A DNA stretch of 64,000 nucleotides from Rhodothermus profundi (GTDB lineage Bacteria; Bacteroidota; Rhodothermia; Rhodothermales; Rhodothermaceae). The notes under the pieces were generated by a model. That model saw only the letters and a list, made by a program, of their open reading frames with translations, did no database searches and had not been told where the DNA came from. How positions within the stretch are numbered: position 1 is the stretch's first letter; each line of letters opens with the position of its first letter. Of the stretch, positions 318 through 15,683 are shown piece by piece. Where the stretch lies: assembly GCF_900142415.1 (NCBI RefSeq), contig NZ_FRAU01000001.1:62001-126000 (forward strand), in the 5' to 3' direction. The position numbers were made by a program, and so were the translations under genes.

Positions 318-2570
318 ATGAAACGAACGCTGCGCTTGCTCCCGTTGCTGAGCCTGGTGCTCTTTTTCGGATGCGCAACCGGCCGGCCTGCCACTACGGT
401 ACAGGCTCCTGCTGCGCCACCTCCTCCCCAGACAGTACCTGAAGCACCGCTTGCGCCTCGTGCCATGCCGACACTGGACACGGTGCGCGCCGGGCGCTTC
501 GACAACGGTAAAATGTGGACATTTGACGATCCTCCCATTGATTACTTCGCTGAGGCCTACGGTTTTCGGCCCGATTCGGCCTGGTTCCGGCGGGCGCGGC
601 TGGGAGCCCTGCGTATTCCAGGCTGTTCGGCGTCGTTCGTCTCGCCCAATGGGTTGGTCATGACCAATCATCATTGCGGGCGGGAAGCGATCGTAGCCGT
701 TAGCCGTCCGGGCGAAAACTTGCTGGACAACGGCTTTTATGCCCGTTCGCTTGGCGAAGAGCGCCGCGTCGAAGACTACTACGCCGATCAACTCATCGAA
801 ATCCGAGATGTGACCGATGAGGTCTATGCTGCATTGGCCGGTGCGGAGACGGATGCCGAGCGGGCTATGGCACGCCAACAGGCTATTGATGCGATTGAAA
901 AACGATTGTTGGAAGAAAAAGGGGGAGAAGAGGCAGGCTATGTGGTCGAAGTCATTGCGCTTTACAATGGCGCTAAATATTCGGCCTACATCTTCAAGCG
1001 CTATCATGACCTGCGGTTGGTGATGGCGCCGGAGTTGCAGATGGGGTACTTCGGAGGGGATCCGGACAACTTCACCTATCCGCGCTATGCACTTGACGTA
1101 ACGTTCTTCCGCATTTATGATGAAAACGGTGCACCTCTGCGCACGACCCACTACTTCCGCTGGAGCCGTGACGGGGTTGAAGAAGGTGATGTCGTCTTTG
1201 TTATTGGCAATCCTGGATCGACCAGTCGGCTGCAAACCGTCGCGCAGCTTGAGTTTCGGCGCGACATACTTGAACCAGCCATCCTGCGGCTGATCCAGAC
1301 GCGCATGGCTGCGCTGCAGGACTACCTGCGCGAGTTGCCTGAAGGACCTGAACGGGAGGAAATTCGCAACGAAGTCTTCGGTCTCAGCAATGCAGAGAAG
1401 CTTTACACCGGCCGCGTCAAAGGACTGCGGGACCCCTACATTATCGCGCGCCGCCGCGACGCAGAGCGGCGTTTCCGAGAGGCGCTGCGCCGCGACTCGA
1501 CGCTGGCGCGTACGTACGATCCCCTCTTTGAGCGTATGGCCGAGCTGGTGGCGCAGCAGCGGGACTATGCAGCCGAGTTGCAAGCATTTCTGGCCTTCAA
1601 CCCGAACAGTGGGCTGAGCAGTACAACCGTGCGCCGCGCCATCCTGGCCTATCTCTACGTAAATCAACAGCAGGCCGGTGCTTCCGACGAGCAGCTTGCA
1701 GAATTGCGGGACGAAATGCTGGGGATCGCGGATCAACCCGTAGGGGTGCAGTGGCGCTACCTGAAGGCGCGTCTGGAAGACTTTGTGCGCTACTTTGGCG
1801 AGGATAGTCGACTCGTGCAACAACTGCTGCAAGGACGTTCGCCCGAGGAAGTGGCCCGCCATATCATTCACAACTCGGTGCTACGGGACTCGGCGCAGAC
1901 CGCGCAAGCGCTGGCCCAGGGCACACTGACCATGGAGGATCCAGCGGTGCAACTGGTGGCAACTGTATGGCCGCGTTTTCAGGCGTTCCAGAGTGCCTGG
2001 GCCGGTATCTCGGCGCAGCAGCAGGAAATTGCCAGCCAGCTCGGGCGGGCCCGCTATGAGGTGTACGGCACTTCGGTACCACCCGACGCTACCTTCTCCC
2101 TGCGCATCGCCGATGGAGTGGTCAAAGGGTACACGTACAATGGTACGATGGCGCCACCCTACACGACGTTCTATGGGCTCTACGACCGCTACTATGCCTT
2201 TGGGCCGGGTACGGACTGGGAGCTGCCCGAGCGCTGGCTGCATCCGCCCGAAACCTTTGATCGCTCCACGCCGCTGAACTTCGTAGCCACGGCTGACATC
2301 ATCGGAGGCAATTCTGGATCGCCTGTGATCAATCCGAAACTGGAAGTGGTCGGACTGATCTTCGACGGCAATATTGAGAGCCTGCCGGCCGACTACATTT
2401 ACATGCCAGATCGTGGCATGCGGGCTATTGCCGTAGACGTACGAGGAATTCTGGAGGCGCTTGACGAAATCTATGATGCCGACCGACTGGTGCTGGAGCT
2501 GACAACCGGACGGCTGGTGCGCTCCGAAGAAGAAGCTGATGCCTTGATGAACCGCGGGCGTGAACAATGA
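318..2570 (+). CDS. S46 dipeptidyl-peptidase, DPP7-like, lipoprotein
   Basis: A 750-residue S46-family serine exopeptidase that removes dipeptides from N-termini in the periplasm. The hydrophobic N-terminus ending FFGC (Cys19) suggests a lipoprotein. The catalytic His lies in TNHHCG (His118/119) and the nucleophile in GGNSGSP (Ser666). The residue 18 positions after the Ser is Gly684, in FDGN. In P. gingivalis enzymes this is position 673, where Gly marks DPP7 (hydrophobic P1) and Arg or Ser marks DPP11 (acidic P1). Length and motifs fit full S46 enzymes. The stop overlaps the start of the second S46 gene by 4 bp (ATGA), so the two are translationally coupled. The family is clear; the specificity is inferred from one residue. 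Confidence 0.92.
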   Translation: MKRTLRLLPLLSLVLFFGCATGRPATTVQAPAAPPPPQTVPEAPLAPRAMPTLDTVRAGRFDNGKMWTFDDPPIDYFAEAYGFRPDSAWFRRARLGALRIPGCSASFVSPNGLVMTNHHCGREAIVAVSRPGENLLDNGFYARSLGEERRVEDYYADQLIEIRDVTDEVYAALAGAETDAERAMARQQAIDAIEKRLLEEKGGEEAGYVVEVIALYNGAKYSAYIFKRYHDLRLVMAPELQMGYFGGDPDNFTYPRYALDVTFFRIYDENGAPLRTTHYFRWSRDGVEEGDVVFVIGNPGSTSRLQTVAQLEFRRDILEPAILRLIQTRMAALQDYLRELPEGPEREEIRNEVFGLSNAEKLYTGRVKGLRDPYIIARRRDAERRFREALRRDSTLARTYDPLFERMAELVAQQRDYAAELQAFLAFNPNSGLSSTTVRRAILAYLYVNQQQAGASDEQLAELRDEMLGIADQPVGVQWRYLKARLEDFVRYFGEDSRLVQQLLQGRSPEEVARHIIHNSVLRDSAQTAQALAQGTLTMEDPAVQLVATVWPRFQAFQSAWAGISAQQQEIASQLGRARYEVYGTSVPPDATFSLRIADGVVKGYTYNGTMAPPYTTFYGLYDRYYAFGPGTDWELPERWLHPPETFDRSTPLNFVATADIIGGNSGSPVINPKLEVVGLIFDGNIESLPADYIYMPDRGMRAIAVDVRGILEALDEIYDADRLVLELTTGRLVRSEEEADALMNRGREQ

Positions 2571-4840
2571 ATCGGTCTTACTGGATTGTTGCGCTGAGCC
2601 TGACGCTGGCTGCGCTGAGTCTCCAGTGTGCCGGGCCGCGCGAAACCGCCCGTCTGGTGGCAACACCTCCTCTGGTAACGGAGGCAGAAACCACGGCGGT
2701 AGTCAGGGTGCAGCGCGTCGGGAAGGCCTCCTGGATAGGAAGGGACACGGTACGGAGCGGACGGTTCGATACGGGACGGCTCTGGACGTTTGAAGCGCCT
2801 CCGCTGGACTACTGGGAAGCAACCTACGGCTTTCGTCCCGACTCCGCCTGGCTGACGCATGCGCGCATGGGAGCACTGCGGCTGGTCTTTGAAAGCGGCC
2901 GCTGCTCGGGTGCTTTTGTTTCCCTCTACGGACTGGTCGTAACCAACCATCACTGCACCTGGGAAAGTCTTGATCTCATTGACCGCCCCGGAGAAGCCTT
3001 GTTGGAAGAAGGATTCTATGCGGCGACCCTGTCGGAGGAGCGGCGGCTGCCCGGCCTGTATGCCGAGCAGCTTCTGGAGGCCCGCGACGTGACGGCTCAG
3101 ATTGCCCGGGGTCTAGAGGAGATTCGCGACGACGTAGCACGGGAACGCCTGCGCAACCGCCGCCTGGAACGCCTCAAGCAGCAACTGGAGGCGGAAGTCC
3201 GATCGCGAGACACCACGCTACACGTAGAAATTGTTCCGCTGTACTACGGGGCGCGCTATACCGCCTACATCTGGCGTCGCTATTACGACGTGCGTCTGGT
3301 CATGACCCCCGAGTTGCGTGTCGGCTATTTCGGGGGGGACTATGATAACTTCACGTATCCCCGCTACAGCCTGGACATCAGCTTTCTGCGCATTTATGGA
3401 GCAGATGGACAGCCCCTGAAAAGTCCCTGGTACTTCCGCTGGAATAGGGAAGGTGCTCAGCCTGGCCAGCTTGTCTTTGCCATAGGCCATCCCGGCGCCA
3501 CGCGGCGTCACATGACTGTGAGTCAGCTTGAATTTGAACGCGACTACACGCTGCCGCAGCGGCTCCGGCTGCTGCGACGCCGCGCACAGATTCTGGAACG
3601 TTATCTCCACCAACAACCAGACTCGGCCGACATCTATGGGTTGCGCAGCGTGTACTTCGCACTGAAGAACACTATCAAAGCCACGGAAGGGCAGCTTCAA
3701 GGGTTGCGCGATCCATACCTGCTGGCGCGCAAGCAGGCAGCCGAGCGGGCGCTACGCGACAGTATGATGGCTAACGATTCGCTGCGCAACCGCTACGGCA
3801 ATGTGTTTGCGCAGCTCGAAGCCCTGCAGCGCAGCAAGGCAGCGGCAGCTCCGCAAACCGCCGCCTTCCAGTTTTTTGGAACCAGCACGCTCCTGAGCTC
3901 CCATATCCTGCTGCGCGCACTCTTTGGTTATGCGCACGACGTAATGCGCCGACGGGGTGCGTTCGCAGCCCGCCTGGCTGAGCTGCGGCGGGAGGCGCTC
4001 AAAATCCGAAATTGGCCCGACTCGGTCGAAGTGGGTTATATCACGGCTCGCCTGGAAGAGCTGCGCGACTATCTGGGACCGCAGCATCCGAGCGTGCAAC
4101 GCCTGTTAGGCGATCGAACACCGGCCGAGGTAGCGCGCGATCTGGTAGCACGTACGGCACTGAAAGACTCGGCTGCCTTTGCGCGGCTGCTGCAGGAAGG
4201 ATACCTGCAGAGCGGTGACGCATCGGTGCCGGTAATCGAGGTGCTCGGACCCCTGTACTTTACGCTTGGCCAGCAACTTGATCAGTTCGAAGCGCGCGAG
4301 CGTTTCCTGAATGCACGCCTGGCGGCGCTCCGCTTTGCCGTTTATGGGCGCACCGTACCTCCCGACGGAACGGGCACGCTGCGGATTGCCGATGGGCGCA
4401 TTGAAGGCTACGCTTACAATGGGACGCAAGCGCCAGCGTTTACTACGTTTTACGGCATGTATGATCGGTTCTACAGCTTCCGGGGACGGAGTGGCTGGAG
4501 CTTGCCGGCGCGGTGGCTGACGCCTTCCGAAGCGTTTGAACGGGCAACCCCGCTTAATCTGGTAGCTAGCACGGACATTTCAGGAGGCAGCTCTGGGTCG
4601 GCCCTGATTGATCAGGAACTCCGTCTGGTGGGCGTCATCTTTGACAGTAATCTGGAGGGACTGGCCGGCAGTTATATCTACATGCCGGATCGGGGCATGC
4701 GCGCTGTAGCGGTCGATAGTAGAGGCGTGCTGGAGGCCCTTCGCGACCTTTACGGAGCCGATCGACTGGTGCTGGAGTTGACGGCCGGGAAGCTGGTGTC
4801 GGATGAAGCGGAGGCAGAAACGCTCATGGAGATGAATTAG
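2567..4840 (+). CDS. S46 dipeptidyl-peptidase, DPP11-like paralogue
   Basis: A 757-residue paralogue of the preceding gene, in an operon with it through an ATGA overlap. The N-terminus is a signal sequence ending LSLQC (Cys21), possibly a lipoprotein although the lipobox is poor. The catalytic His is in TNHHC (His128/129) and the nucleophile in GGSSGSA (Ser676). The specificity position 18 residues later is Ser694 (FDSN), which in the family groups with Arg as the DPP11 class preferring Asp/Glu at P1. The pair would therefore cover hydrophobic and acidic dipeptides. The 3' end overlaps the convergent phosphatase-like gene by 17 bp. Confidence 0.92.
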   Translation: MNRSYWIVALSLTLAALSLQCAGPRETARLVATPPLVTEAETTAVVRVQRVGKASWIGRDTVRSGRFDTGRLWTFEAPPLDYWEATYGFRPDSAWLTHARMGALRLVFESGRCSGAFVSLYGLVVTNHHCTWESLDLIDRPGEALLEEGFYAATLSEERRLPGLYAEQLLEARDVTAQIARGLEEIRDDVARERLRNRRLERLKQQLEAEVRSRDTTLHVEIVPLYYGARYTAYIWRRYYDVRLVMTPELRVGYFGGDYDNFTYPRYSLDISFLRIYGADGQPLKSPWYFRWNREGAQPGQLVFAIGHPGATRRHMTVSQLEFERDYTLPQRLRLLRRRAQILERYLHQQPDSADIYGLRSVYFALKNTIKATEGQLQGLRDPYLLARKQAAERALRDSMMANDSLRNRYGNVFAQLEALQRSKAAAAPQTAAFQFFGTSTLLSSHILLRALFGYAHDVMRRRGAFAARLAELRREALKIRNWPDSVEVGYITARLEELRDYLGPQHPSVQRLLGDRTPAEVARDLVARTALKDSAAFARLLQEGYLQSGDASVPVIEVLGPLYFTLGQQLDQFEARERFLNARLAALRFAVYGRTVPPDGTGTLRIADGRIEGYAYNGTQAPAFTTFYGMYDRFYSFRGRSGWSLPARWLTPSEAFERATPLNLVASTDISGGSSGSALIDQELRLVGVIFDSNLEGLAGSYIYMPDRGMRAVAVDSRGVLEALRDLYGADRLVLELTAGKLVSDEAEAETLMEMN

Positions 4841-6760: not shown

Positions 6761-8038
6761 ATGAACTGGAAAGGATGGGCGCAGATGCGCCGCTGGTGGG
6801 CGCACTGGAAACAGCGTATCGGGCCGCAGGGTGACTGGGCGCTGGTGCTCAGTGGCGGAGGAGCCCGTTCGGCCTATCAGGCAGGCGTGTTGCACTATAT
6901 TGCCGAGGCGTTTCCAGACCGGGCTTTTACGATCCTGACCGGCGTGTCGGCCGGGGCGATCAATGCAGCGCAACTGGCTAACCATACGGGAACGTTTCCG
7001 GAAGCGGCTGTGCGTCTGGTGCAGACCTGGCAGGCAGTCCGCCTGGAAGATGTGATGGAGCCCGAATCGCGCTGGAAGGTGCTGCGTACGCTGCTGCGCC
7101 GGGCCCGATCGAACGGAGAGCAGCCGCTTCCCGAAGACACGTTGCGCGGCCTGGTGGATAATGCCCCGCTGCGTGCATTTTTAAAACGGCACCTGCAAAC
7201 GACCGATGGAAGACTGCATGGCGTGGCTTTTAACCTGAAACGCGGTACGCTGCGGGCCTTTGCGGTAACGACCACAAACTACTCAACCGGCCAATCAGTT
7301 ACCTGGGTGGAGGGGCGCAACATTCAGAACTGGGAGCGGCCAGACCGACGCGGAGTGCAGACCGAACTGACGGTTGAGCATATCCTGGCCTCTGCTGCGT
7401 TGCCGCTGGTTTTTCCAGCCATTCGGCTGGGCGATGCCTGGTATGGCGATGGGGGAATTAGTCTGCTAACGCCGCTGGCGCCGGCCATTCATCTGGGGGC
7501 CCACGCTATTCTTGCGATCTCAACGCGCTACAAGCGAAGTCAGGCAGAAGGGGATGCGCACGACGTAGCAGGTTATCCACCGGCCGCCCAGATTCTGGGC
7601 CTTATGCTCAACGCAATCTTCCTGGATACGCTGGACCAGGACGCAGCAATGCTGGCGCGCATTAATCGACTGGTGGAAAAGTTGCCACCGCATCGCCGCG
7701 AGGGGCTTCGTCCCATTCGTCTTTTAATTCTGCGTCCTTCTATAGATCTGGGTAAGCTAGCCGCAAACTATCGTCCCCCGCTCAAGGGGGCCCTGCGTTT
7801 TCTCACCTGGGGGCTAGGGGCTACAGAAACAAAAACCCCTGATTCGCTCAGCATGATGCTGTTTGATCCGGACTACATTGCGCGGTTGCTGGAAATCGGC
7901 TACCAGGACGCGCAGCGCCAGCACGACCGCATTGCCGCCTTTCTGGAGGAGGCGCCGAGGCGGCCACCCGGCAACGGACAGCCAGGTAGTGCGTCGCCAG
8001 CGATCAGTGGCGCGGAAGCACCACCCGCAGCCCGATAA
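6761..8038 (+). CDS. Patatin-like phospholipase
   Basis: A 425-residue patatin-family serine hydrolase (Ser-Asp dyad) expected to cleave acyl esters of phospholipids or neutral lipids. The oxyanion-hole loop LSGGGARSAYQAG is near residue 30. The nucleophile elbow GVSAG lies near residue 66, and the catalytic Asp is in WYGDGG near residue 230. No signal peptide or membrane segment is evident, so it is probably cytoplasmic or peripheral. The C-terminal about 40 residues are Pro/Ala/Gly-rich. The 3' end overlaps the convergent S9 peptidase by 35 bp, so its last 11 codons are read on both strands. Confidence 0.9.
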   Translation: MNWKGWAQMRRWWAHWKQRIGPQGDWALVLSGGGARSAYQAGVLHYIAEAFPDRAFTILTGVSAGAINAAQLANHTGTFPEAAVRLVQTWQAVRLEDVMEPESRWKVLRTLLRRARSNGEQPLPEDTLRGLVDNAPLRAFLKRHLQTTDGRLHGVAFNLKRGTLRAFAVTTTNYSTGQSVTWVEGRNIQNWERPDRRGVQTELTVEHILASAALPLVFPAIRLGDAWYGDGGISLLTPLAPAIHLGAHAILAISTRYKRSQAEGDAHDVAGYPPAAQILGLMLNAIFLDTLDQDAAMLARINRLVEKLPPHRREGLRPIRLLILRPSIDLGKLAANYRPPLKGALRFLTWGLGATETKTPDSLSMMLFDPDYIARLLEIGYQDAQRQHDRIAAFLEEAPRRPPGNGQPGSASPAISGAEAPPAAR

Positions 8039-10736
8039 AGGAAGGAGGAGGAGCGGACAATTCGCCGGTGCGCGGGTCGCGTACCGTGACGGCCGATGCG
8101 CCAGACGGTTGCAGCGTGCCTTTTGCGGCTACTGCCCACTCGGCTACGTTGCCGTCTAAATCATATAGTAGCGGAGCCTCTGGATCTCTGGCATTGCCCG
8201 GTGGACGCGACCCGACGGGCAGGAGCAGCTCGTCGGGGCGAAAGCCAGCCAGCACATCTTCCAGCTGCCGGCGTTCATCGGGGTTGGGCGTATAGCCCAG
8301 CCAGTAAGCCAGCGTATTTTCGGAGGGTCCGGCCTTCTTCTGCAGCGTTTCTAGCTCACGCTTTGTAGGCAGTCGATACGGCTGGCCAGTCTGGCGACGG
8401 AGCCAGGCCACGTAAGCGCGGGCTTCGTCGGCCGTAATGCCGCTGGCCGGGTAGTTTTCGGTGCCTGGAGGTACCGGGTAGTCGGGCTTGAAAGCCCGAA
8501 ACTGCGCGCGGGTAATCTCAAAGCGACTGACCAGAAGCGTGTCGCCCAGCGGGACCATCTCTGGTAGCAACCGTCCCTGATGTTCGACGCCGTAGAGGCC
8601 GTCAGCCGTGCGGGCAATCTGACGGGCCCGCAGACGCAGCGCCAGCGGAGCATCTTCAGGCAGCACGCGCTGGCGCAGACGTTCCGCCATCGACGTGCGT
8701 CCAAACAGATAGGTATCAGCCCAGGCCAGGTCTTCTTCCATTTTACGCCGCTGGTGAGAGGGACGCCGGAAGCTATGGGGTTCGTCAGGATACAGGATAA
8801 AGCGAACCGGGGCCTTGCCTAACTGCTGGAGCGCTCGATAGTGCTGCCATCCCTGCTCGGTAGGTACGGCCGTGTCTTTATCGCCAAAGTGAATCAGCGT
8901 GGGCGTAATGACCCGGTGCAGTCGGAAAAGGGGACTCTTGGCGATGTAGTGATCCAGCCGCTCCCAGGGAGGGCCTCCAAAGTAAGAGTCGTCAAAACGC
9001 ACCCCAAAGGCACAGTTGCCATAGTCGGAGATCCAGTTGACATCGCCAGCACCTGGCATGGCCACCTTGAAGCGCTCGGGATACTCGACCGTCAACGCAA
9101 TGGTCAGAATCGCTCCGTTAGACCAGCCCATCACCCCCAGGGAATCCGGGTCAACCAATCCCTGGGACACGAGATAGTCGATCCCCTGGATAATGTCGGG
9201 CAGTTCCAGTTCATAGTAGCGTCCTTTGATGGATTCGACGAATTCCAGGCCATGGTGACCGCTTCCGTGGTAGTTGGGCCGTAGTACGAAGGCGCCTCGT
9301 TGCGCCCACAGCGGCGGATAGACGGTCCAGTCGGCGCGCCAGGCATCTAGATCAACTCCACTGGGGCCGCCATGAATGACCACCATCAGGGGATAGCGAC
9401 GGCCCGGCCGGTAGTTGAAGGGGTAGTAGAGGATGCCGTTGACCGTGTCGCCTTCAGCGCCTTTCCAGTAGATTACGTCAGCGCGGGGAATGGGGTAGTC
9501 TTTAAGGTACGTGTTGAGTTGCACGAACGGACGGACGTCGCGCAGGCGACCGCGTTGATAGGTCCCCACCAGGTATTGCGGGAGCAAATCGGCTCGTGAA
9601 TACACAAAGGCAATGGTGTGACCATCCGGACCGATTCGAATCGACGTGCTATGGCGCAGACGCGCGTCCAGAACGGGATGGGCGCGCCAGCCGTCGGCCG
9701 TCTTTTCATAAAAGCGGGGTTCCATGCGGGGACCGGCTGCGAGTTGCACATGCACGCCCCCTTCCGTTACCTGATACCCTCCGTAGCCGACACCGGCCTC
9801 CCAGCCCAGCGGGACTTCCCGGTAGGTGCGGCGTGCAACGTCAAAGTAGTAGAGTTTGGTGATGCCAGCTCCCTCGTTTTCCGGATCTGAAGCAAACTCG
9901 TCACTTGCATAAAAGCCCGCGCCATCGCGGGTCCATACAAATCGTTCGGGATCAAAATAGCGTTCAGCAAAAATTTCGACCGTCTCATTGCGATGGAGGT
10001 CCAGCAGATACTGGCGCGGCTGGTGGCGTGCATCAGCATCAACCGGATGCGGATCAATGCTGTAGACAAGGTAACGCCCGCTTGGATCGACAGAAAATTC
10101 CAGAATTTCCCCTTCGTTCTCGGTCAGCCGTTCGATTTTCTTCGAGTCGATAGCGATGCGGAAAAGCCGTACCGGATAGAATTCGGTAGTGTCTTCGATA
10201 GCCTGGGCGTCGTCTTTTCGCTTTTTGCGTAGCTGTTCGTCATAGGTAGGCGTCTCACGTGCAGCGAAGACGAGCCGTGTGCTGTCGAACCAGGCAAAAG
10301 ATTGGACGGGCACGTCCAGCTCGGTGAGGCGATACGGCTCGCCGCCAAAGGTGTCGAGCAGCCAGATCTGGCTCCCCTGCGTCGGGTCATTGCTGTGGAT
10401 CTTTCGGGAGGACAGAAAAGCGATGTAGCGGCCGTCCGGGCTCCATCGGGGCGCACGGTTGTTACCGCTGCGCGTAAGCTGCACCGTCAGGGGCAGACCA
10501 TCGGGACCCTGACGGTCGAGGTAGGTCAAAAACAGATCGGTTTCAAAACGATCCTTGTCGAAGTTGGCCTTGCGTCGCACCCAGACAATGCGCCGGCCAT
10601 CCGGGGCGATTTCCAGGTCCGTGAGTCGTTCCTGCCGCAGGATGTCTTCGATGGTCCAGGTGCGTTGAGGTTGCGTCTGGCCAGGCGCCGCCAGCAGCAA
10701 CCAGCAGATCAAACCAAGGCCCAATTGCCGCGTCAT
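8004..10736 (-). CDS. S9 prolyl-oligopeptidase family peptidase fused to FGE-sulfatase domain
   Basis: A 910-residue protein. Residues 1-21 are a signal peptide. Residues about 25-420 hold the TolB-like beta-propeller repeats (for example RWSPDGRYIAFLSS). Residues about 430-680 form the S9 alpha/beta-hydrolase with triad Ser539 (GWSNG), Asp621 (FGDKDTAVP) and His654 (DEPHSF). Residues about 710-910 carry a formylglycine-generating-enzyme-like domain with the hallmark DLDGNVAEW, RLPTKRELE and a final FIGLRVVL. This second domain has no cysteine, so it cannot work as a Cys-dependent FGE and is probably a binding fold. It should be exported. It lies 33 bp downstream of the lipase gene on the same strand. 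Confidence 0.9.
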   Translation of the reverse strand: MTRQLGLGLICWLLLAAPGQTQPQRTWTIEDILRQERLTDLEIAPDGRRIVWVRRKANFDKDRFETDLFLTYLDRQGPDGLPLTVQLTRSGNNRAPRWSPDGRYIAFLSSRKIHSNDPTQGSQIWLLDTFGGEPYRLTELDVPVQSFAWFDSTRLVFAARETPTYDEQLRKKRKDDAQAIEDTTEFYPVRLFRIAIDSKKIERLTENEGEILEFSVDPSGRYLVYSIDPHPVDADARHQPRQYLLDLHRNETVEIFAERYFDPERFVWTRDGAGFYASDEFASDPENEGAGITKLYYFDVARRTYREVPLGWEAGVGYGGYQVTEGGVHVQLAAGPRMEPRFYEKTADGWRAHPVLDARLRHSTSIRIGPDGHTIAFVYSRADLLPQYLVGTYQRGRLRDVRPFVQLNTYLKDYPIPRADVIYWKGAEGDTVNGILYYPFNYRPGRRYPLMVVIHGGPSGVDLDAWRADWTVYPPLWAQRGAFVLRPNYHGSGHHGLEFVESIKGRYYELELPDIIQGIDYLVSQGLVDPDSLGVMGWSNGAILTIALTVEYPERFKVAMPGAGDVNWISDYGNCAFGVRFDDSYFGGPPWERLDHYIAKSPLFRLHRVITPTLIHFGDKDTAVPTEQGWQHYRALQQLGKAPVRFILYPDEPHSFRRPSHQRRKMEEDLAWADTYLFGRTSMAERLRQRVLPEDAPLALRLRARQIARTADGLYGVEHQGRLLPEMVPLGDTLLVSRFEITRAQFRAFKPDYPVPPGTENYPASGITADEARAYVAWLRRQTGQPYRLPTKRELETLQKKAGPSENTLAYWLGYTPNPDERRQLEDVLAGFRPDELLLPVGSRPPGNARDPEAPLLYDLDGNVAEWAVAAKGTLQPSGASAVTVRDPRTGELSAPPPSFIGLRVVLPRH

Positions 10737-10769: not shown

Positions 10770-11630
10770 CTAATCTACGAAAGCCGACATTTCAATGGCG
10801 CAGCACAACCGATAGCACAGGTAGCGGAAAAACATTTTTTCATGGAAGCGAGCGCCGGGACCAAGGTGCACGCCAACCTGGCGCAGGTGATCGACCGGAA
10901 GCGTACCCAGAAAGTGCCCCCACCGGGCACTCCGGACCGCGACATACCCGTCATTGAGCCCTTCGTGTCGGTAAATGTAGCGGGCAAGCGGGGCAATGCA
11001 GGGAGTAATAGGCACGTTGGTCCCGGGACCGGCCATACCGGCCCAGGAGAAATAGGGAATGTCGGGACAATCAGGTACTTCCGGGTTGAAAACGTCGGTG
11101 AGGTAGGCTGGTGTCAACTGAGCTACTGCCTCTAGTAGGGCGGCCGGTTCGTCAGGGAGCAGCAGATGGCTGAGGCGTCGGGCCAGGCGATCCAGCCAGC
11201 GTCGGATGACTTTGGGACGCTCCAGGATGAGTTGGGCGAGGGCGGTGCCTCGGTGTGGCGTGGCAATGGTGGTTAACGAAGCGACATGGCGATAGCCGTC
11301 GAGGCAACTGATCAGGTAGCGGGCGTCAAGCCCACCCATGGAGTGTGCGATCAGGTGAGCTTTCGGGGCCCGCGTCTCTTCTAGGATCGTTTGCAGATGC
11401 TGGCGCCAGCGTTCAGCCCGCCGGGCAATCGGGGCGTACGGCGCCACGTTCGGTGCGTAAGCGCGGATGCCGTGCTGGCGCAAATAGGTGGCCACTGGGT
11501 GAAGTTGACTTTTGCGCCAGGGGAAAACCAGGGCCCCCAGGCCATGCATCAGCAAGACGGGATAGTGCAGGGGCACCACCGGGGGATCCGGAAAAGATGG
11601 CGTGCGCAGCCAGGTTGTGGAAGAACCCAT
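10770..11630 (-). CDS. Alpha/beta-hydrolase, triacylglycerol-lipase-like
   Basis: A 286-residue alpha/beta-hydrolase. The oxyanion loop is LLMHGLG near residue 30. The nucleophile elbow is AHSMGG followed by LDARYL, the pattern of bacterial family I lipases. TIATPHRGTALA follows, and a His in the final quarter could complete the triad. No signal peptide is visible from this start, although true lipases of this type are usually secreted, so the protein may act inside the cell. It is probably cotranscribed with the downstream S9-FGE gene (33-bp gap). The substrate cannot be told from the sequence. Confidence 0.82.
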   Translation of the reverse strand: MGSSTTWLRTPSFPDPPVVPLHYPVLLMHGLGALVFPWRKSQLHPVATYLRQHGIRAYAPNVAPYAPIARRAERWRQHLQTILEETRAPKAHLIAHSMGGLDARYLISCLDGYRHVASLTTIATPHRGTALAQLILERPKVIRRWLDRLARRLSHLLLPDEPAALLEAVAQLTPAYLTDVFNPEVPDCPDIPYFSWAGMAGPGTNVPITPCIAPLARYIYRHEGLNDGYVAVRSARWGHFLGTLPVDHLRQVGVHLGPGARFHEKMFFRYLCYRLCCAIEMSAFVD

Positions 11631-12572: not shown

Positions 12573-13634
12573 ATGGCAGATTTTCCCGCGCTTCAGAATG
12601 ATCTATTGTTGCGGGCGGCGCGACAGGAGCCCGTCGAACGCACGCCTGTCTGGATCATGCGCCAGGCCGGTCGTTATTTGCCGGAGTACCGAGCGCTTCG
12701 TGCCGACGAGGCCTTTTTCGACGTGGTGCGCACGCCGGCCCTGGCTGCTGAGGTGACCCTGCAACCGTTGCGGCGCTTTCCGCTCGACGCTGCCATCATT
12801 TTTTCGGATATACTGGTTGTGCCGCAGGCGATGGGGCTTCGGGTGGAGATGATTCCAGGGCGTGGCCCGTACTTTCCGGACCCACTTCGGACGGTTGAAG
12901 ACCTGCGGCGGCTCCGGCGGCCAGATGTGCAGGACGCGTTGCACTACATGTTGGAAGCGATTACCCTGACGCGCAAGGCGCTGGCCGGCAAGGTGCCGCT
13001 TATTGGCTTTTGCGGGGCACCCTGGACGCTCATGGCCTACATGATTGAAGGAGGCAGCAGCAAGACGTTTGCGCGGGCTAAAGGCTGGCTTTACCGGCAA
13101 CCAGAGGCCAGCCATCGACTGCTTACGCTGCTAACCGACGTGCTGGTGGATTTTCTAATTGCCCAGATTGATGCCGGCGCGCAGGTCGTGCAGGTGTTTG
13201 ATTCCTGGGCGGGCGTGCTGAGCCCGGATCTGTTCCGTGCGTTTGCGCTTCCGTATTTGCGGCGCATTGGCGAAGCCGTCAAAAAGGCGCGGCCCGAGGT
13301 TCCCCGCATTGTGTTTGCCCGGGGAGCTCACGCATCGCTTGCGGAGCTGGCAGACGGCAGCTATGACGTCGTGGGACTCGACTGGACGGTTGACCCGCGA
13401 CAGGCGCGGAAACTGACGGGCGGGCGTGTGGCGCTGCAGGGCAACCTGGATCCCTGTGCGCTGTACGCCGACCCTGAAACGATTCGTCAATTAACGCACC
13501 AGATGCTGGATGCCTTTGGGCCGCGCGGCCATATCGCTAATCTTGGCCACGGTTTGCATCCTGATCACCATCCCGATCACGTGCGTGCTTTTGTAGAGGC
13601 CGTGCACGACTACGTGCCGGTTACGTCTACCTGA
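12573..13634 (+). CDS. hemE: Uroporphyrinogen decarboxylase
   Basis: A 353-residue enzyme that decarboxylates uroporphyrinogen III to coproporphyrinogen III in heme synthesis. The family signature [18 protein letters not shown] is at residues about 24-41. The catalytic Asp is in IIFSDIL (near residue 75). [17 protein letters not shown] and [12 protein letters not shown] near the C-terminus are also diagnostic. Length is typical. It heads a run of heme genes that continues with hemF, hemH and hemL in this window. It overlaps the convergent histidine kinase gene by 8 bp. Confidence 0.97.
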
Positions 13635-15561
13635 TGGCCGGAAGCACAATGGTAAACGTGCTGCCCTGTCCCGGGGCACTTTCTACCTCAATGCGTCCAC
13701 CCATGCGTTCCACAATTTGCCTGGTGATGGCCAGCCCCAGGCCACTGGAGGGTTCGTCGCCTGTAGGTTGAGCTGAAAGGCGCTGGAAGTAGCCAAACAA
13801 CCGCTTACGATCTGCTTCGGTCAAACCAGGACCTTCGTCTTGAACGCTCAACCGCACCGTACTGGTATGGCGATGGAGTCGAACAACAATGCGTTTGCCA
13901 GCAGGCGTAAACTTGAGCGCATTGCTTAGCAGGTTGGCAAGCGCGCGGCGTAGCTGTTCGGGATCGGCTTCCACAAAGCAGGGCATATCCGGAGGCCCTG
14001 CAAAAGTAAGCTGCTGCTGTTTACGCGCAGCGCATAGTTGATAGAAGCGGACGGTTTCGGCTGTCAGGGCGGCCAGGTCCAGACGTGTCCGGCGGAAAGT
14101 GACGCGGCCGCTTTCGAGCGCGGAGGCCGTGATTAACTGCTCAAGGGTATCCAGCATGCGACGTCCGGCCGCTTCGGCCAATTCGAGCAGCTCCTGGTGG
14201 GGACTGGAAGGGGGAAGTTCTTCGCGTACTGTCTGGATCAGCCCCTGAAGGCTGCTCAGCGGATTGCGCAGGTCATGGGCCGTGGCACCCAACAGATGTG
14301 TTTTCAAGGCATTAACTTCTTGCAGGTGCTGCTCGGTTGCTTCGGCGCGGGCCCGGGCCAGCAGGGCTTGCTCGCGTTCGCGCGTGAGCTGGCGAATACG
14401 GGCTCCCAGAGCCAGAGAAAGCAGGAGCGCTTCCGCAGCTGAACCTATTTGAGCGCTATAGCGGGTTGCCGGCAGGACAGGGAGCAGGCCCCACCAGACG
14501 GCTACGTATACTAGCAGGCCCAGTACAAAAGGCAGGGCGGCCAGCAGATAGTAGCGGGCCAGGGGATGTCGCCGGCGGTGCACCTGCCAGGCTGCTCCCA
14601 GGCTAAGCAGGGCTACCGTTGCAGCGAGCAGGGCAGCCATCCGTTCTGCCACAACCCAGTAGTTCAGGAGTCCCATCCATGCAGGCAATGCCAGCGCGCC
14701 CATTAGCATGCGCAGCAAGCGGTGATAGCGCGGCGCATAACGGGCGGTCTCCAGAAAGGCAATCGTAAAGCACAGATAGCTAAGTCCAGCGCCCAGCAGA
14801 AGATAAAAGTCAAGACTGTGCGGGTAGGTGCGGTTGGCAGGCCAGAACAGATCTGCCAGATACCCGGAAGCAGATAGCCAGAACAACGCCAGCAGGGCGG
14901 TCAGCATGACATAGTACAGGTAGCTGCGCTCACGCACCACAAGAAACAGAAACAGATTGTACAGCGCCATGGCTAACAACAGGCCCGCCAGCACTCCCTG
15001 CACGACGCGGTGAGCGCGCTCGGCCGCCAGCGCTTTATCGATGGGATAAAACTGGATGGATATCGGAACACCGGGCGAGATGTAGCTGACGAAGCGGTGT
15101 CGGATGCGCAAATACAACTGCTGGGGGACATCTGGCGGCAGGTGAAGCGACAGATAAGGTGGCCGAAAGACTGCAAGATCCCGTTCCTGAAGCGGCACCT
15201 GATATCCGGTGCGCAGGGTGTCGTGTGGCGGCAGGCGGCCCTCCATGAGCACATAGCCAACTACCTGGTCGACAGGAATCTTGATCAACCAGTGTGAGTA
15301 CCCTGCCGGCGCAACGAGATTCAGGCGAAGCCAGTAAGTGCCAGGAGGTAGATCGGGGTGCAGGTGGCCGGGCGTGGTCCACCGGTCTAGCTGGATTACC
15401 TGAGCGAGCGTCAGGGTATCGGTGGGGTCAATCAGCAGGGAGGTATATTTTTCCTGTACGGTCAACGTTGCGTTACGGTCGAGGCGAAGGATAGGCGTGG
15501 GAGAAGTATCGCGGAAGAGCGGCAAAAAGCAAAGTAAAAGGAATATATATCCGGGCGGCAT
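13627..15561 (-). CDS. 7TM-DISM sensor histidine kinase
   Basis: From the ATG at 15561 ([16 protein letters not shown]) this is a 644-residue membrane sensor kinase. The start was chosen because it gives a clean signal peptide; the frame stays open to 15621. Residues about 25-165 form a periplasmic 7TMR-DISM extracellular domain, about 180-370 are seven hydrophobic segments, and a short coiled coil follows. HisKA is [13 protein letters not shown] with phospho-acceptor His429. The HATPase has LSNALKF (N box), DEGPGL (G1) and GLGLAITR (G2), with no receiver domain. DISM kinases sense small carbohydrate-like or unknown ligands. No response regulator is nearby, so it is an orphan. Confidence 0.9.
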
Positions 15562-15683
15562 TACGGTACAGCTCCCGCCAGGAGACCGGCTTTGGTGATG
15601 TAATACAGCTCCTACCCGCAACTGAAGCGGAAGGTCCTCGTTGGATAGTTTACCTACGGAGATTATGGAGGGGAAGTGAGACC

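Follow-up and report, generated by a model that had tools for sequence, protein, structure and literature searches.

What an FGE-type fold without its catalytic cysteines contributes to a peptidase is the question raised by one gene in the window, the 64,000-nucleotide stretch of Rhodothermus profundi DNA analyzed here. FGE folds that lack these cysteines are widespread among bacteria and, to our knowledge, mostly unexplained. In this gene the disarmed fold is permanently fused to a peptidase whose activity can be read out; removing the fold would make its contribution measurable.

The gene (8004..10736, minus strand, as are all features given for it below) starts with ATG and runs as a single frame of 910 codons with no internal stop. 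Pfam analysis of the whole protein placed PD40 (61 bits) and Peptidase_S9 (PF00326, residues 475-677, 140.5 bits) above their curated cut-offs, together with FGE-sulfatase (PF03781) at residues 750-868 (25.3 bits against a cut-off of 23.3); the last score rose to 29.7 bits when the tail was scanned by itself. The N-terminal 21 residues (10674..10736) resemble an export signal, with a basic start followed by a hydrophobic stretch, and the N-termini of the homologs were similar but variable; the protein is thus probably exported and either periplasmic or extracellular. A beta-propeller occupies about residues 30-410 (9507..10649), as seen from PD40, from an alignment to 8wt1 that begins at residue 30 and from an all-beta model. 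It is followed by an alpha/beta-hydrolase of the Peptidase_S9 type (about residues 411-680, 8697..9506), a linker (residues 681-696, 8649..8696) and an FGE/SUMF-fold tail (residues 697-910, 8007..8648). The full-length AlphaFold model was confident overall (pLDDT 92, pTM 0.81), and confidence dipped locally to about 72-76 in the linker, which is little conserved, so the placement of the tail relative to the rest is not firmly predicted. The hydrolase had the lowest dN/dS within the genus (about 0.017), followed by the propeller (about 0.055) and the tail (about 0.094), and purifying selection acts on all three parts. The fusion of an S9 peptidase to an FGE-fold domain lacking catalytic cysteines, first proposed in a sequence-only reading of the locus, was supported in agreement by Pfam, AlphaFold and Foldseek.

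The peptidase half has the propeller and hydrolase of family S9 with the catalytic order Ser-Asp-His. The triad that had been predicted, Ser539 (9120..9122), Asp621 (8874..8876) and His654 (8775..8777), was numbered correctly and was kept in 98 of 98 homologous rows, Ser539 being invariant across all 99 rows when the window protein is counted. The top full-length structural matches by Foldseek were the S9C carboxypeptidases 8wt1, 7ep9 and 5yzn (TM normalised to the target, 0.81-0.86), and acylaminoacyl peptidases (PDB 4hxe) were also among the best sequence and structure matches of this half, which therefore has the overall fold of S9C-type carboxypeptidases and acylaminoacyl peptidases. The resemblance to these four enzymes covers propeller and hydrolase throughout the S9 part at 18-26% identity, whereas their chains stop at the hydrolase, without an FGE-fold tail. 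The serine motif also differs: it is GWSNGAI, near-invariant across the S9-FGE family, in place of the GGSYGG of S9C-type and acylaminoacyl enzymes, and NYHGS stands at the position of NPRGS in 8wt1. None of the signatures quoted for S9A to S9D (GGSXGGLL, GWSYGGY, GGSYGG and GGHSYGAFMT; PMC12871690) fits GWSNGAI, and substrate preference therefore cannot be transferred from those subfamilies. A further stretch, NWxSDYGxCxFGxxFDxSYFxGxPW, was extremely conserved in the alignment, and its position makes it a probable component of the substrate pocket; its conservation suggests that the members of the family share one specificity. The best reading of the window protein is an S9C-like oligo- or exopeptidase.

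The tail by itself was modeled by AlphaFold with high confidence (pLDDT 95.1, pTM 0.91) and matched FGE-fold entries of the PDB in Foldseek with E-values down to 1e-6 and a probability of 1.00, so the prospect that structure prediction would reveal an unrelated C-terminal domain was not borne out. The top matches were all FGE-fold proteins (CarF, PvdO, ToxD, OvoA, FGE, PorK, a Treponema variable protein and EgtB) at a TM of about 0.5, a value that points to a compact form of the fold. In profile comparison, PorK/GldK were the closest solved sequences, followed by ToxD and PvdO. The tail thus combines an FGE-like fold with a PF03781 match over the curated cut-off; because that match is barely over it in the window protein, the reality of the domain was judged from homologs, and 75 of 78 tails (the window and 77 homologs) matched PF03781 independently, with a best E-value of 3.4e-17. 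The tail shares with FGE/SUMF1 and PvdO both the fold and a DxxGNVxEW-type motif, which in the window protein is the DLDGNVAEW noted earlier, at residues 859-867 (8136..8162); D859, G862, N863 and E866 were present in 98% of rows. Conserved motifs specific to the family are ENTxxYWxGY and DxxGNVAE.

In a genuine FGE, two copper-binding cysteines come after the GGS motif. At the FGE catalytic positions no cysteine was found in any of 99 rows (the window and 98 homologs). Unlike in FGE, only a short segment separates GGS/GAS/GYS (879-881) from GFR/GLR (902-904), with no cysteine conserved in it across the family, and residues 883-901, the counterpart of the cysteine-pair region, are shortened and variable. 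Acidobacteriota and KSB1 members have GGSA here, which is nearer to other FGE-family proteins than the GASA of the window. The description of the domain as cysteine-less holds for the window tail, which has no cysteine (the two in the whole protein are C11 in the signal region and C575 in the hydrolase), but not for the family as a whole: cysteines occur in the tails of members from KSB1/Calditrichota, Acidobacteriota and some Bacteroidota, never at the catalytic positions. Only two tail positions, AYC (776) and EWC (868), had a cysteine in common in at least 10 rows, and these cysteines are likely structural. Most of the KSB1/Calditrichota-type loci L088-L095 have both, at positions unlike those of the FGE catalytic pair, and there the pair is possibly a disulfide. 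No histidine was found among the highly conserved tail positions of the alignment.

The spread of proteins with S9 and a C-terminal FGE domain, which the sequence-only reading had left to be surveyed, proved wide. A search of named genomes found the architecture, about 880-980 residues long, in at least 80 loci, nearly all of them full-length matches, spread over Rhodothermota, Balneolota, Bacteroidota, Calditrichota/KSB1, Acidobacteriota and Gemmatimonadota. Many of these loci lie on contigs of metagenome-assembled genomes, and individual phylum labels may be wrong. They came from Rhodothermus, Salinivenus, Balneolales, Fodinibius, Lewinella/Neolewinella, Winogradskyella, Lutibacter, Leeuwenhoekiella, Cyclobacteriaceae, Calditrichota, candidate division KSB1, Acidobacteriota and Gemmatimonadota. 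The tail was kept in all 98 homologous rows except those truncated by a contig end. When the tail was used as query against 394 genomes of the phylum, it yielded a clear set of frames of about 920 residues from several families and classes. With a full-length family profile, a member was found in 17 of the 394 genomes, always full length, scoring 1180-1440 bits and aligned to the last positions, whereas the remaining S9 matches scored at most 350 bits and their alignments ended at about residue 680, near the hydrolase end and the point at which an FGE domain would start. S9-FGE is therefore a discrete family, and the fusion is not broken in this sample. Longer S9 frames in two genomes (G240 and G228) were considered as independent FGE fusions and rejected, since their chains stop soon after the hydrolase and the extra length is N-terminal.

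In a tree built from the S9 part only, the FGE-fused peptidases clustered together (SH-aLRT 99) and were ordered roughly by phylum, with Acidobacteriota and Gemmatimonadota adjoining KSB1; as this tree was made by a quick method with partial outgroup rows, it supports a single fusion but does not prove it. The distribution is patchy: one genome (G195) has no S9-FGE gene, and four sampled members of its genus have one. The genome of the window has eight S9 genes, and its one PF03781 match is the S9-FGE gene.

The earlier remark that this fusion had no named architecture stood in part. No Pfam or NCBIfam model naming the full-length family was found, and a 2008 survey of serine proteases makes no mention of an FGE domain. 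The family is nevertheless large and multi-phylum, and the Fig. 3 legend of a 2014 paper (PMC4522959) lists an FGS (formylglycine-generating sulfatase) domain among bacterial POP architectures. This is apparently the same domain combination; the available part of that paper gives it no organism, domain order, function or family, and no discussion beyond the figure legend was found there. A search for functional studies of the family found none in the literature covered, most subscription journals being outside its scope. The family thus appears to be uncharacterised rather than unseen: it is solid and widespread and is made from known parts. Being conserved, it would give a definable S9 subgroup for annotation.

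As to function, the account that we find on balance somewhat probable is an exported S9C-like peptidase bearing a non-catalytic FGE-fold module for docking, assembly or access. Ser539, Asp621 and His654 would trim short peptides inside the chamber between propeller and hydrolase. The tail, having presumably lost the copper-binding cysteine pair while the loop that carried it shortened, would make no formylglycine and would instead have a structural and docking role from a fixed place at the end of the hydrolase, setting the oligomeric state, partner contacts or entry to the active site, in a manner similar to the FGE fold of PorK. Like the tail, PorK/GldK of the type IX secretion system has an FGE-fold domain without catalytic cysteines, and PorK showed that such a fold can serve as a docking hub for protein-protein contacts, which was resolved experimentally (PMC12421860). 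In S9 enzymes, moreover, a "sticky beta-edge" on the hydrolase gives rise to differences in oligomeric state (PMC12871690). This precedent, the sticky edge and the attachment of the tail to the hydrolase end together speak for a role in assembly or access rather than for a second enzyme. The likeness to PorK has its limits, because PorK is a stand-alone lipoprotein of the secretion ring without a peptidase domain, and the S9-FGE tail is fused and scored 20.7 bits with the PorK/GldK model (NCBIfam TIGR03525) against a cut-off of 350. A link to type IX secretion through PorK/GldK was rejected, as no GldK above cut-off was found in the genome of the window. A broader proposal, which we put forward tentatively as somewhat less than an even chance, is that GWSNGAI and the strongly conserved pocket mark a distinct, undescribed S9 subfamily in which a disarmed FGE domain was acquired a single time and has become indispensable to the peptidase, as its regulator or assembly hub, in at least six phyla.

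The original suggestion that the tail docks substrates or anchors the enzyme is plausible. In one version of it, peptides, glycans or cell-wall material would still bind in the former FGE peptide groove, or in a pocket on the surface, and this would feed or localise the peptidase. The presence of a ligand-binding member of the fold among the tail's matches (the Treponema variable protein, 2y3c) and the persistence of the conserved family motifs are in accord with this, but the region that bears the cysteine pair and lines the substrate site in FGE is the very one that is shortened and variable here. Furthermore, no gene neighbor of any kind was found to recur across phyla at the S9-FGE loci, where only synteny within the genus and a tricorn-like/M28 context in Flavobacteriia were seen; with no partner indicated in this way, the result weighs against the favored docking account as well. 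We regard substrate recruitment as unlikely, though a serious contender.

Considerably less probable is a bifunctional protein whose tail is a cysteine-independent enzyme of the PvdO type. Among NCBIfam models the tail matched PvdO ("dihydropyoverdine dehydrogenase") best, and PvdO was close in Foldseek as well; its score, however, was 29.8 bits against a cut-off of 500 (NF051459), the OvoA and EgtB models were likewise far below their curated cut-offs, the tail has neither a conserved cysteine nor a highly conserved histidine, and no biosynthetic context was seen at the loci. Fusion of the peptidase to a genuine formylglycine-generating enzyme that activates sulfatases would account for a significant PF03781 match that is the only one in the genome, but it was ruled out as extremely improbable, given that no aligned tail has the cysteine pair. 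A frame error or chance resemblance, for which only the 2-bit excess of the single-sequence match could be cited, is negligible in view of the intact 910-residue frame, the full-length homologs found across numerous separate genomes and phyla, the independent PF03781 tails, the high-confidence fold, the family profile and the purifying selection.

Several Flavobacteriia have a gene for a tricorn-like protease about 28 bp upstream of the S9-FGE gene, with an M28 peptidase gene nearby; one such tricorn-like protease (L119:2644-5937) has PD40, tricorn C1 and PDZ, and S41 domains. A functional pairing of two propeller peptidases is possible there, and this context fits peptide degradation. In the window, two full-length S46 peptidase genes, of the dipeptidyl-peptidase 7/11 type by family, stand in tandem on the plus strand (318-2570 and 2567-4840) and overlap by 4 bases, so that with the S9-FGE gene there are three peptidase genes in about 10 kb. 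The S46 tandem and the Flavobacteriia tricorn-like context both fit peptide use.

Immediately upstream of the S9-FGE gene, at a distance of 33 bases and on the same strand, is an alpha/beta-hydrolase gene (lipase/PGAP1-like, 10770-11630, minus strand); the two are probably co-transcribed, and this neighbor was retained in Rhodothermus only. On the other side, a patatin-like phospholipase gene (6761-8038, plus strand) converges with the S9-FGE gene, their 3' ends overlapping by 35 bases (8004-8038). A 7TMR-DISM sensor histidine kinase gene is located further along the window at 13627-15621 on the minus strand.
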